Below are positions 11,690 through 60,892 of a DNA stretch of 64,000 nt, piece by piece (within the stretch, counting starts at the first letter, position 1; every line of letters starts with the position of its first letter). The notes beneath the pieces are model-generated. The model did not search any database and had not been told where the DNA came from. It was given only the letters and a program-made list of their open reading frames with translations. The DNA lies in assembly GCF_008838325.1 (NCBI RefSeq), contig NZ_CP042829.1:868001-932000 (forward strand), given 5' to 3'. This DNA comes from Tepidiforma bonchosmolovskayae. GTDB taxonomy: Bacteria > Chloroflexota > Dehalococcoidia > Tepidiformales > Tepidiformaceae. The translations under genes were made by a program, and so were the position numbers.

Positions 11690-12958
11690 CTAGGCGGTAG
11701 CCGCGACCGGTTCGGCGTCGGTAATGCCGGGGACGGGGTAGGCGCGGGCGAACTCGGCGACTTCGGCGCGGACGGCTTCGCGGACGCCTTCGCCGTCGGG
11801 GTCCTTGAGGACGCGGATGATCCAGGCGGCGACGCGGCGCATTTCGTCTTCCTTCATGCCACGGCTGGTGAGGGCCGGGGTGCCGAGGCGGAGGCCGCTG
11901 GTGACGTAGGCGGAGCGCTGGTCGTAGGGGATGGTGTTGCGGTTGGTGATGATGCCGGCGCCCTGGAGGGCGTTCTGGGCCTTGAGGCCGCTGATGCCGA
12001 CGGAGTTGCAATCGACGAGGATGAGGTGGTTGTCGGTGCCGCCGGAGACGAGGCGGATGCCTGCGCGCATGAGCTCTTCGGCGAGGACGGCGGCGTTCCG
12101 GACGACCTGGGCGGCGTAGGCTTTGAACTCGGGCCGAAGGGCTTCGCCGAAGGCGACGGCCTTGGCGGCGATGGAGTGGAGGTGGGGGCCGCCCTGGGTG
12201 CCGGGGAAGACGCCGCGGTCGAGGGCATCGGCGTGCTCGGCCTTGCAGAGCGCGAGGGCGCCGCGGGGGCCGCGAAGGGTCTTGTGGGTGGTGGTGGTCA
12301 CGATATCGGCGTAGGGAACGGGGCTGGGGTGGACGCCGCCCGCGACAAGCCCGGCGATGTGGGAGATGTCAGACATGAGGATGGCGCCGGCCTCGCGGGC
12401 GATTTCGGCGAAGGCGGCGAAGTCGATGGTGCGGGGGTAGGCGGTGGCGCCGGAGACGATGATGCGCGGCCGGTGTTCGAGGGCGAGGCGGCGAACTTCG
12501 GCCATGTCGATGGTTTCGGTTTCGCGGTCGACGGTGTAGGGGACGAAGCGGTAGAGGCGGCCGGAGAAGTTGACGGGCGAGCCGTGGGTGAGGTGGCCGC
12601 CCTGGGAGAGCTCCATGCCCATGATGGTGTCGCCGGGGTTGGCGAAGGCGAGGTAGGCGGCCATGTTGGCCTCGGCGCCGGAGGTAGGCTGGACGTTGGC
12701 GTGCTCGGCGCCGAAGAGCTGCTTTGCGCGGTCGATGGCGAGCTGTTCGAGGCGGTCGCTGTGCTGATTGCCGGCGTAGTAGCGCTTGCCGGGGTAGCCT
12801 TCGGCGTACTTGTTGGTAAAGACGGAGCCGGTGGCCTCGAGGACGGCGGCGGAGGCGTAGTTCTCGCTCGCGATCATTTCGAGGGATTCGATTTGGCGGG
12901 TGCGCTCGTCGTCGATGATGGCGGCAACTTCGGGATCGGCGCGGTGGAGGATGGACAT
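11690..12958 (-). CDS. glyA: Serine hydroxymethyltransferase
   Basis: 422 residues, the full family length. PLP-binding Lys lies in [17 protein letters not shown]; other matches are [19 protein letters not shown], and [10 protein letters not shown] near the N terminus. It interconverts serine and glycine with tetrahydrofolate and supplies one-carbon units in the cytosol. It lies upstream of the rpsF group on the same strand. GGGAG is placed before the ATG. Upstream of it lies the heptamer array at 13015. Confidence 0.97.
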
Positions 12959-13014: not shown

Positions 13015-13171
13015 GAGCGGGGAGCGGGGAGCAGGGTGCGGGGAGCGGGGAGCAGGGAGCAGGGAGCAGGGAGCAGGGAGCAGGGAGCGGGGAGCGGGGA
13101 GCAGGGAGCGGGGAGCAGGGAGCGGGGAGCAGGGAGCGGGGAGCAGGGAGCGGGGAGCAGGGAGCGGGGAG
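13015..13171 (+). repeat. Heptanucleotide tandem array (GGGAGCR)n, about 22 units
   Basis: A perfect or near-perfect run of GGGAGCA and GGGAGCG units fills most of the space between glyA and the methyltransferase gene. One variant unit (GGTGCG-like) occurs near the left end. The array directly abuts the TAA stop of the minus-strand methyltransferase. Runs of GGG every seven bases on the plus strand meet the usual G-quadruplex rule. Units are tandem without spacers, so it is not a CRISPR. It resembles the short tandemly repeated heptamer arrays known from filamentous cyanobacteria. Confidence 0.97.
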
Positions 13172-13867
13172 TTAGCGGGCCCGGCGGAAGACGAAGAGGG
13201 CGTGGCCCTGCTCGCCGCGTTCGTAGGCCTGGACGAGGTAGGCGACAGCATCGAGCTGGCGGAGGTAGGTGCGGGTGCCGTAGCGCTCTTCGAAGTAGGG
13301 GCGGCGGCGGACGAGCTCGGCTTCGGCGACGCGCCAGGTGTGGGCGGCCTCGGCGCTCAGGGGGCGGTGGGCGGCGAGCTGCCAGCCGGCCCGCTCCCAG
13401 TCTTCAATGAAGGCATCGAGGCCGCCGCGGGAATCGGAGGGGGCTTCGCAGCAGAGGCAGAGGGTGGCGCCGGGCGCGGCGACGCGGTTGAACTCGTGGT
13501 AGGCGATTTCGGTGTCGAGCGCCCAGATGCTGTCGAAGGCGGCGTCGCGGAAGGGCAGGCGGCGGTTATCGGCGGCGACCCAGCGGACGGCGCTGCCGCC
13601 GGGGAGGTCGCGGCCGGCGGCGAGGAAATCGGGGTTGATGTCGGTTGCGATGGCGATGCAGCCGGTCTGTTCGGCGGCAAGGCGGGCGGTTGCGCCGACG
13701 AAGGCGCCGGCATCGAGCATCCGCCTGCCGGGGCCGAGGCCGGAGCGCTGGAGGAGCCAGCGGGTGGTTTCGATGCCGCCGACGTGGTTGTGCTCGCCGA
13801 GGAGGTCGATCCACCAGGCGGCGTAGTCGTCGGCGAGGCGCTGGAGGGCCGGATGGGCGGCGGGCAC
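13172..13867 (-). CDS. Class I SAM-dependent methyltransferase
   Basis: 231 residues from a GTG start. Motif I is MLDAGAFVGATARLA, the acidic residue of motif II is in IAIATDINPDFL, and motif IV-like is in FRDAAFDSIWALDTEIAYHEFNRV. This is the Methyltransf_11 fold; the substrate is unknown. The GTG at 13867 was chosen because TATCCT lies 6 nt before it and no other start is available downstream without losing the N-terminal helix. The 3' end touches the heptamer array. It is divergent from the small gene at 13935. Confidence 0.8.
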   Translation of the reverse strand: MPAAHPALQRLADDYAAWWIDLLGEHNHVGGIETTRWLLQRSGLGPGRRMLDAGAFVGATARLAAEQTGCIAIATDINPDFLAAGRDLPGGSAVRWVAADNRRLPFRDAAFDSIWALDTEIAYHEFNRVAAPGATLCLCCEAPSDSRGGLDAFIEDWERAGWQLAAHRPLSAEAAHTWRVAEAELVRRRPYFEERYGTRTYLRQLDAVAYLVQAYERGEQGHALFVFRRAR

Positions 13868-51058: not shown

Positions 51059-52358
51059 AGGCGATGGCGCGCTGGCGGAGGGCGGGGTGCTGGCCGAGGA
51101 GGGCGAGGCCCTTCCGGCTGAGGGCGCTGACGGTGCTCTTATCGCGGCCGCCGAGGAGGGCGCCGACCTGGGCGAGGCTGAGGCCGTGCTCCTGGAGGAG
51201 GGCGGCAGCGACGGCGCGGGCTTCGCCGACGCGGGCACCGCGGGCGCGGCCGGCCAGGTCGCCGGAATCGACGCCGAAGTAGCGGGCGACCCGCTCGAGG
51301 AGCTCGGCGGTCGGCTCGGCGCCGGCGGCTTCGGCGATGGCGACGCGGGCGATTTCGGCATCGAGGCGGGCGAGGTCGAGCCGGCCGACACGCTGGAGTG
51401 CGATGGCCTGGTTGACGGCGCCGAGGAGGAGGCGGACGGAGGGGGCGCGGCAGCTGGCGAGGCGCTGGACGGCCCAGGCGGGGAGGGCGATGCGATGGCG
51501 GCGGGCGACGCGTTCGATGAAGGCGCGGCGGGCGTCGTCGTCGAACGGTTCGACGCGGGTGACGATGCCCTGGGCGAGGCGGGAAGAGAGGCGATCGAGG
51601 AGGTCGAGGTCGAACGGGTGGCGCTCGGAGGCGACGGCGACGTGGCCGCCGCGGTGCATGACGGCATCGAGTGCAGAGGCGAACTCCTCCTGGGTGGCGC
51701 GGCGGCCGGCGAGCTGCTGGAGGTCATCGAGGAGGAGGAGGTCGACCTCGCGGATGGCGGCGTGGAAGTCGCCCTGGCGGCTGGTGCGGACGCCTTCGAC
51801 GAAGCGGGCGGTGAAGGCGGCGGCATCGAAGCAGGCGACGCGCCGGCCGAGGCGGCTGGCGAGGCAGGCGGCGGCGTGGAGGAGGTGGGTCTTGCCAAGG
51901 CCGGGCGGCCCGTAGACGACGACGGGGGAGGGGGCGCCGGGGACGGCTTCGGCGAGGTCGCGGATGGCGTGGAAGGCGAGGAGGTTGCCTTCGGAAGGCT
52001 GGTATTCGTCGAAGGTGTAGCGGCAGTTGACGTTGCCGAGGATTTCGCCGGCTGGGCGGGCGGCAGCGGGGTCGATGCCGGGGCCGACGATGGTGACGGC
52101 GACGTCGCCGAAGACCTGGGCGACGGCGCGCTCGATGACGGGCCGGAGGCGGGTATCGAGCCAGTCGCGGGCGATGTCGTTGGGGGTTTCAATGGCGAGG
52201 GTGGCGCCGTCGAAGGAGCGCGGACGGGCGCCCTTGAGCCAGGTGGCGAAGGTGTGCGGGTTGAGCTGGACCTCGAGGCAGCCGAGGACGGCGCGCCACG
52301 AGCGGGCGAGGTGGCGGGGTTCGCTGCTCGCACTGGCGGGTTCCAACGGCACACACAC
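51057..52358 (-). CDS. dnaA: Chromosomal replication initiator DnaA
   Basis: 433 residues from GTG 52358, with a GGAGGAAGGAG ribosome site. Domain I (TFATWLKGARPRSFDGATLAIETPN), AAA+ with Walker A GPPGLGKTHLL, Walker B LLLLDDLQQLAG, and domain IV (LSLAQVGALLGGRDKSTV) are all present. DnaA opens the origin. Domain IV differs from the usual: GGRDHTTV reads GGRDKSTV and the Gln of RPRQ is replaced, both at residues that touch the DnaA box. No DnaA-box cluster is visible nearby. Possibly a second DnaA, though full length is preserved. Confidence 0.9.
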   Translation of the reverse strand: MCVPLEPASASSEPRHLARSWRAVLGCLEVQLNPHTFATWLKGARPRSFDGATLAIETPNDIARDWLDTRLRPVIERAVAQVFGDVAVTIVGPGIDPAAARPAGEILGNVNCRYTFDEYQPSEGNLLAFHAIRDLAEAVPGAPSPVVVYGPPGLGKTHLLHAAACLASRLGRRVACFDAAAFTARFVEGVRTSRQGDFHAAIREVDLLLLDDLQQLAGRRATQEEFASALDAVMHRGGHVAVASERHPFDLDLLDRLSSRLAQGIVTRVEPFDDDARRAFIERVARRHRIALPAWAVQRLASCRAPSVRLLLGAVNQAIALQRVGRLDLARLDAEIARVAIAEAAGAEPTAELLERVARYFGVDSGDLAGRARGARVGEARAVAAALLQEHGLSLAQVGALLGGRDKSTVSALSRKGLALLGQHPALRQRAIA

Positions 52359-58290: not shown

Positions 58291-58446
58291 GAGGGGGGAG
58301 GGAGGAGGGAGCCCCGCGTCCGCCGCTCCGCCCCGCCGAGGGAGGAGGGAGGAGGGAGCCCCGCGTCCGCCGCTCCGCCCCGCCGAGGGAGGAGGGAGCG
58401 GGGAGCGGGGAGCGGGGAGCGGGGAGCGCAGACCATCCCTCGTCAG
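58291..58446 (+). repeat. Composite G-rich repeat with 30-bp direct duplication
   Basis: The 30-base segment at 58311-58340 (starting GCCCCGCGTCCGCCGCTCCG) recurs perfectly at 58358-58387, a period of 47. GGGAGGAGGGA spacers lie before each copy. Five perfect GGGAGCG heptamers (58394-58428) follow, and the element closes with GCGCAGACCATCCCTC, which recurs in the element at 60689. Confidence 0.95.
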
Positions 58447-58484: not shown

Positions 58485-58877
58485 GTGGAAGAACGGGAAC
58501 GGTACGCGGCGGGCGGAAGCACGGGGGGCGGGAGCGGGTGGACGCCGGAACGGGTGACAGCGCTCCGGCGGCGGCTGGGGCTGACGCAGGCGGAGTTCGC
58601 CCGGCGGCTCGGGGTGCGCCAGCAGACGGTCTCGGAGTGGGAGACGGGCCTCCACCGGCCGCGCGGGGCGAGCACGACGCTCCTCCGGATGCTGGCGGAG
58701 GAGGCCGGGAGGTGGGAGGAGGGAGCCCTACCCCTGCGTCCCAACCCCGCCGAGGGAGGAGGGAGCCCCGCCCGGCCCTGGCCCCGCCCCGAGGGAGGAG
58801 GGAGCGGGGAGCGGGGAGCGGGGAGCGGGGAACTGGGAGCGGGGAGCGGGGAGCAGGAAGCGGGGGACGGGCGATGA
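58485..58877 (+). CDS. Small XRE-type HTH protein with repeat-derived tail
   Basis: 130 residues from GTG. The helix-turn-helix lies at about residues 23-73: ALRRRLGLTQAEFARRLGVRQQTVSEWE, a Cro/C1 fold. The last 45 residues are read from a heptamer element and give low-complexity Gly/Ser/Glu ([17 protein letters not shown]). GTG 58470 would add five residues. The TACACT site gives GTG 58485. Probably a repressor; targets unknown. Confidence 0.65.
   Translation: MEERERYAAGGSTGGGSGWTPERVTALRRRLGLTQAEFARRLGVRQQTVSEWETGLHRPRGASTTLLRMLAEEAGRWEEGALPLRPNPAEGGGSPARPWPRPEGGGSGERGAGSGELGAGSGEQEAGDGR
58712..58866 (+). repeat. Composite G-rich repeat inside HTH gene
   Basis: GGGAGGAGGGAGCCC blocks, a GC-rich segment and GGGAGCG/GGGAACT-type heptamers repeat the layout of 58291-58446, but diverged. 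The element makes up the 3' part of the HTH gene and ends a few bases before its stop. Confidence 0.9.
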
Positions 58878-60688: not shown

Positions 60689-60798
60689 GGGAGGAGGGAG
60701 GAGGGAGCCCCGCCACCCGCACCGGCACCGCCCCGGGGGAGCGGGGAGCGGGGAGCGGGGAGGGGGGAACGGGGAGCGGGGAGCGCAGCTCATCCCTC
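60689..60798 (+). repeat. Composite G-rich repeat upstream of GNAT gene
   Basis: GGGAGGAGGGAGGAGGGAGCCCCGCC, a CCGCACCGGCACCG segment, and GGGAGCG heptamers (one GGGAACG) end with GCGCAGCTCATCCCTC, as in the 58291 element. It lies between divergent genes. Confidence 0.93.
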
Positions 60799-60892
60799 AT
60801 CCCTGAGGCCTGTTCCCGCGGGCGGCGGGGGCGGTCTGGTAGGCTGTGGGTGCCCGCGCTGGCAAGGCGGTGCGGGCGGGGGGTTCGAGAGC

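Follow-up and report, generated by a model that had tools for sequence, protein, structure and literature searches.

Bacteria are known to carry heptameric G-quadruplex (G4) microsatellites. In filamentous cyanobacteria there are short tandemly repeated repetitive (STRR) heptamers, with known units that differ from the GGGAGCR unit considered here. KOPS, another short G-rich sequence, has the motif GRGNAGGG. According to the accessible part of the xanthomonad study (Rehm et al., 2015; PMC4692102), heptamers in that group prefer neither leading nor lagging strand and neither origin nor terminus, four units are the preferred number, and arrays are under-represented between divergent genes. The same text mentions three heptanucleotides of Calothrix and refers to a proposal that heptamers suit the active site of the polymerase. 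KOPS is oriented toward the terminus (PMC2680272, in part), and bacterial G4s are described as enriched on the leading strand, following GC skew (Quadrupia, PMC12581993, in part).

The arrays described here share many features with the Xanthomonas (GGGAATC) and Nostoc (GGGGAYT) heptamers, as these appear in the available text of PMC4692102. Both have a period of 7 and a GGG tract, are dispersed and mostly intergenic, lie near stop codons, and occupy the same sites with variable length and sequence in related species. With their period-7 GGG units, dispersal and variation at orthologous sites, our arrays belong with the G4 microsatellites of the Rehm et al. (2015) type. They are unlike those of PMC4692102, as far as that text goes, in their near-total polarity, their confinement to the origin half of the chromosome, and in not avoiding divergent gaps. 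An even spread without leading or lagging preference, which is a xanthomonad finding and not part of the definition, was not seen, 35 of 36 arrays being polar. Because they are polar and confined, we file them as a variant of the heptameric G4 microsatellites. Our preferred reading, which we hold to have an even chance of being right, is that (GGGAGNN)n is a dispersed intergenic heptameric microsatellite of G-quadruplex type whose expansion depends on the direction of replication and which serves as a site of recombination. Near-perfect polarity, a limit at about half a megabase and the marking of both ends of an inversion contrast with the strand-neutral, even spread described for xanthomonads; origin-confined polar heptamer arrays are not reported in the available portions of the literature on heptamer arrays, G4s and replichores, KOPS, inverted skew, and Tepidiforma.

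The window is the whole stretch of 64,000 nucleotides that was analysed. Its genome (G000) has 2,746,948 bases, and G004, G001 and G003 (the last in eight contigs) are congeners. An earlier note on this DNA had described about 22 GGGAGCR heptamers abutting a stop codon, and this was confirmed. Tandem Repeats Finder gave a period of 7 with 22.4 copies and 89% matches, as well as a period-14 solution with 11.2 copies and 93% matches. The array ends flush against the TAA of the minus-strand methyltransferase gene, read as TTA at 13172-13174 (Table 1). A few degenerate units, e.g., GGGTGCG, lie near its low end. The claim that its G-tracts are of G4 type holds at the level of the motif, and four heptamer units are given -8.4 kcal/mol by an RNA model with G-quadruplex terms. 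Three further arrays are present in the window. The 47-bp repeat adjoining the second of them has 2.5 copies, in which GGGAGGAGGGAG is joined to a C-rich CCCCGC part, and G004 arrays have comparable G-rich/C-rich composite segments beside them.

Table 1. Heptamer arrays of the window and the genes beside the first of them (window coordinates).
Feature	Coordinates	Strand	Remarks
(GGGAGCR)~22 array	13015..13171	+	G-rich strand is +, 5'->3' toward the origin 416 kb off
glyA (serine hydroxymethyltransferase, PF00464)	11690..12958	-	start-codon side 56 bp from the array
Methyltransferase gene (Methyltransf_11, PF08241)	13172..13867	-	TAA abuts the array
Second heptamer array, 6 units	58387..58428	+	adjoins 47-bp tandem repeat 58291-58406
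Third heptamer array	58793..58865	+	
Fourth heptamer array	60736..60784	+	inversion breakpoint vs G004 (window 60804-60825) 39 bp from the unit run

Three exact GGGAGCR units occur 236 times in G000 (101 on the plus and 135 on the minus strand), compared with 0 occurrences of a reversed control pattern in the same genome, and the array of the window is therefore far beyond chance. A 79-base probe matched G000 at 66 places, corresponding to 36 arrays after weak rows were removed and neighbours merged. The 10 rows dropped from these 66 had E above 1e-3; five were isolated (all toward the origin), four extended listed arrays, and one was opposite-oriented inside the 790-kb locus. In G004, 15 of 65 rows were dropped, all toward the origin and six of them 613-714 kb from it, and in G001 9 of 26 were dropped, eight toward the origin and four beyond 530 kb. 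Array counts in G001 and G003 are lower bounds, 40 of 79 and 40 of 59 first-look candidates having been scored, respectively.

In the genus, the GGGAGCR pattern was found in five of six genomes (the sixth having 72% completeness); it was also found in one of 31 other genomes of the family, and in none of 24 genomes of the class; a looser pattern (GGAGNNN repeated, with GGAG five times) was found in 17 of 61 genomes. Five exact units are present in at least 119 stretches of public genomes, a set from which the species of the window was perhaps left out. Among the matches listed are Moorena, Nostoc and Fischerella (cyanobacteria), Streptomyces, Glycomyces and Micromonospora, as well as Bacteroidales, Verrucomicrobia, Planctomycetes, Acidobacteria, Lysobacter, and others. 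That the unit recurs in unrelated phyla suggests a tendency of the heptamer itself to form arrays, and agrees better with a property of the sequence than with a single dedicated protein. The likeness to cyanobacterial STRR proposed in the earlier note is supported in this respect: both are heptameric tandem arrays, the GGGAGCR unit itself is present in Moorena, Nostoc, Fischerella and others, and PMC4692102 describes similar heptamers.

Run length differs at 19 of 20 orthologous sites at which both flanks were matched, within a range of 2-66 units and with contrasts as large as 2 vs 61, 4 vs 66, and 5 vs 46. The most frequent units are GGGAGCG (49%) and GGGAGCA (34%) in G000, GGGAGCT (28%), GGGAGCC (26%) and GGGAGCG (24%) in G004, and GGGAGTT and GGGAGCT (22% each) in G001. 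Unit variants are species-specific, and arrays change copy number fast at fixed sites. Slippage-prone length change, which had been proposed for the array of the window, is thus supported by these 19 sites. Both copies and lengths vary across related genomes (28 arrays in G004 and at least 53 in G001), and the array is neither the sole copy in its own genome, which has 36, nor of constant length.

Gene context was taken from gene calls made with our own codon-score script, not from annotation. Thirty-four of the 36 G000 arrays are intergenic, 15 between tandem, 12 between divergent and 7 between convergent genes, in proportion to the share of intergenic bp of each class (49, 34, and 17%, respectively). 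Array edges lie within 10 bp of a gene on 16 of 29 stop sides vs 2 of 39 start sides; avoidance of starts fits room being kept for promoters. Placement at gene ends therefore stands as far as edges near stops are concerned, but there is no excess at gene ends over other intergenic contexts. The stop-side edges are also what would speak for arrays acting as a transcription terminator, roadblock, or 3'UTR element at gene ends, a role of this kind having been suggested earlier. However, gene ends are no more favoured than other intergenic surroundings, and neither strand is preferred, the G-rich strand being sense in 6 tandem pairs and template in 9. At the array of the window, the fold of the G-rich strand is not above shuffles (z 0.36), the promoter/terminator scan found no overlapping terminator pattern, there is no Rfam match, and the GC hairpin and U tract of an intrinsic terminator are absent. 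A single terminator-like match (13197-13209) was seen, within the methyltransferase gene. We consider such a role highly improbable, and the flush stop in the window has another possible origin in gene loss.

In four congeners the order is methyltransferase, a gene of about 240 aa, array, and glyA. In G000 the ~240-aa gene is absent at the glyA site, and the array begins at the methyltransferase stop. The product of this gene, which we take to be SGNH-hydrolase-like, carries DLTHVNxxGHARRA near its end in the four congeners. A search of 38 G000 pieces, which make up 26.6% of the genome, did not find the gene; it may lie elsewhere. The flush stop would thus fit loss of the neighbouring gene. 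Across five species the unit and length of the repeat differ at the glyA site, and two species have some runs on the other strand. Upstream of glyA, G003 and G001 have GGAGGTT runs in which the G-rich strand lies against the usual polarity, adjoining CTCC-type runs that keep it.

In G000, the arrays change strand and GC skew switches in the interval from 1.20 to 1.30 Mb, a region that holds rnpA, yidC, jag, parA, and parB (names read from translations). Three parS-like sites lie at 1,296,936-1,297,342. From rnpA, parS, yidC and parAB, the predicted origin of G000 is at 1.297 Mb. Clusters of parS are at the strand switch also in G004 (569 kb) and G001 (1.230 Mb), and 16S rRNA and ribosomal protein L4 run with the fork in all three genomes only if the parS/parAB place is the origin. 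Gene orientation shows a weak bias that agrees with this, with 307 codirectional and 253 head-on genes (p 0.025). The tRNA directions are even, four codirectional and four head-on, and no convincing dif site was found in the sampled stretches, so that the terminus is not placed by dif. A dnaA gene (Bac_DnaA_C match) lies in the window at 51123-51302 on the minus strand, 378 kb from the parAB/parS origin region. The opposite assignment, with 1.2-1.3 Mb as the terminus and the arrays as FtsK-orienting KOPS, was rejected in view of parS, rnpA-yidC-parAB, and the directions of 16S and L4.

GC skew is inverted in G000 and G004, where the leading strand is C-rich, and up to 800 kb from the origin coding DNA has a skew of about -0.2. 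The usual bacterial sign is the opposite, according to the available text of PMC7717575 and PMC12581993, and the inversion bears on any placement of the origin by skew. Between 60 and 510 kb, codirectional genes have a leading-strand skew of -0.216, head-on genes one of -0.154, and intergenic DNA one of -0.159. In G000 (C1:1206001-1298000) the skew stays near zero over some 90 kb left of the origin and changes abruptly to -0.17 immediately right of parS, giving an asymmetric plateau.

Relative to this origin, the G-rich strand runs 5'->3' inward in 35 of the 36 G000 arrays (p 1e-9), in all 28 of G004, and in 48 of 53 in G001, the other five of which point away. Matches in G003 are mostly uniform per contig (17 plus and 2 minus on one, 14 minus on another, 8 minus on a third). 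The sequences flanking arrays in G000 and G004 have about 85-96% identity and for the most part occupy corresponding sites, so these two samples are not independent; because most sites are common to both, their polarity is largely inherited. Polarity tracks the replication arm, not genes. In nearly all arrays the G-rich strand is the leading-strand template and matches the nascent lagging strand in sense. Along the arms, the same polarity is seen in single GGGAG and in G4 motifs as a whole. When heptamer arrays were masked, G4 motifs pointed 99 to the origin and 6 away in G000 (20 sampled stretches), and 118 and 9 in G004. A strong replicative strand bias of G4s, in step with GC skew, is common to our genomes and to Quadrupia (as far as its available text shows), but here the sign is opposite, with the motifs on the leading-strand template.

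On the preferred reading, expansion in the observed orientation would be favoured by structures that G-tracts form on the nascent lagging strand, and arrays in the opposite orientation, with the G-rich strand on the lagging-strand template, would be deleted or selected against. In trinucleotide repeats, expansion is favoured in one replication orientation and loss in the other, and it is by analogy with that work that we infer the orientation-dependent expansion step.

According to the preferred reading, long arrays would also recombine. Given their uniform polarity, co-oriented arrays on one arm would produce deletion or duplication only, and arrays on opposite arms would produce origin-spanning inversions that leave every array still pointing to the origin. 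G000 and G004 differ by an origin-spanning inversion of 685 kb. Its ends in G000 are at 928,804/928,825 (39 bp from an array) and 1,614,016/1,614,265 (inside an array, 0 bp), and the four flanking ends in G004 are 17, 211, 167, and 29 bp from arrays. DNA within 100 bp of an array makes up about 0.9% of the sampled domain DNA in G000 and 1.6% in G004, figures that are higher relative to intergenic DNA alone, so that two inversion ends could lie near arrays by chance with a low but appreciable probability. Of the three apparent breaks between G000 and G004, the third is away from arrays. Between G000 and G001, two of four breaks are at arrays, where they bound a moved segment of about 2 kb (G000 926.9-928.5 kb), and two are not. 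The breaks away from arrays count against the preferred reading, as do the five G001 arrays that point away, the GGAGGTT runs at glyA, and the largely inherited polarity of G000 and G004. That inversion ends and the moved segment are bounded by arrays might also indicate that arrays seed one another by recombination or gene conversion and become homogenised, as a diffuse mobile repeat, and the species-specific unit variants common to many loci agree with this. Independent expansion of similar seeds would equally give common units, however, and such spread appears improbable to us. The arrays offer one system in which to ask whether replication direction decides expansion vs shrinkage of G-rich repeats in a natural genome, and whether repeat arrays cause the symmetric inversions known across bacteria.

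Arrays are nearly all confined to the surroundings of the origin: in G000, 34 of 36 are no more than 510 kb away, and 27 of 28 (G004) and 51 of 53 (G001) within 530 kb. Counts per 172-kb eighth of an arm, from the origin outward, are 12, 11, 11, 0, 1, 1, 0, 0 in G000; 9, 9, 8, 1, 0, 1, 0, 0 in G004; and 11, 25, 15, 1, 0, 1, 0, 0 in G001. This sharp limit near 510 kb is not accounted for by composition. The proximal share predicted from G4 or GGGAG density is 39-52%, compared with 34/36 and 27/28 seen (P 2e-10 to 3.5e-8). The size of the coding skew is similar at 60-510 and 510-800 kb (0.205 vs 0.209 in G000, 0.198 vs 0.231 in G004), and across 510 kb the intergenic skew falls from 0.174 to 0.064 in G000 and rises from 0.079 to 0.190 in G004. 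It could be argued that arrays hitch-hike on base composition, with asymmetric strands providing G-rich slippage seeds on one strand and nothing else being special, as single GGGAG and all G4 motifs have the polarity of the arrays and coding skew is about 0.2 near them. Seeds and skew go on past 510 kb but arrays do not, which makes this explanation rather unlikely.

The replication-direction model does not account for the limit either, and the limit is the best argument for a selected landmark. Arrays might mark an origin-centred domain of about 1 Mb, to be read directionally by a translocase, condensin, or G4-binding protein in a KOPS-like manner. A step-like domain in three genomes, strict polarity, and the conservation of many sites between G000 and G004 all favour this possibility. 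Like the KOPS and SRS of FtsK/SpoIIIE (PMC2680272, PMC5869595, both in part), the arrays have a short G-rich polar motif with strand bias per arm, and GAGCAGGG inside the array resembles the KOPS motif. The FtsK gamma domain is present in six of six genus genomes; a short-motif search for the FtsK recognition helix gave chance matches alone. Unlike KOPS and SRS, the arrays here point to the origin, are tandem-clustered, and are concentrated near the origin. In 116 of 138 sampled cases GGGNAGGG is directed toward the origin, the wrong polarity for KOPS, which points to the terminus in the accessible part of PMC2680272. In addition, units drift between species, runs at orthologous sites go from 2 to 66 units, and the same GGGAGCR heptamer is found in unrelated phyla. 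Directional landmarks therefore seem to us somewhat unlikely. It is also unlikely, in a broader form, that selected polar arrays mark the ~1-Mb domain and either orient a DNA-tracking machine or serve as safe recombination sites, safe because uniform polarity would leave room only for deletions or duplications inside one arm and for origin-spanning inversions.

One array lies far from the origin (about 890-920 kb) in both G000 (C1:378465-378609) and G001 (C1:2117672), with both flanks in common, and G004 has an array at a similar distance.
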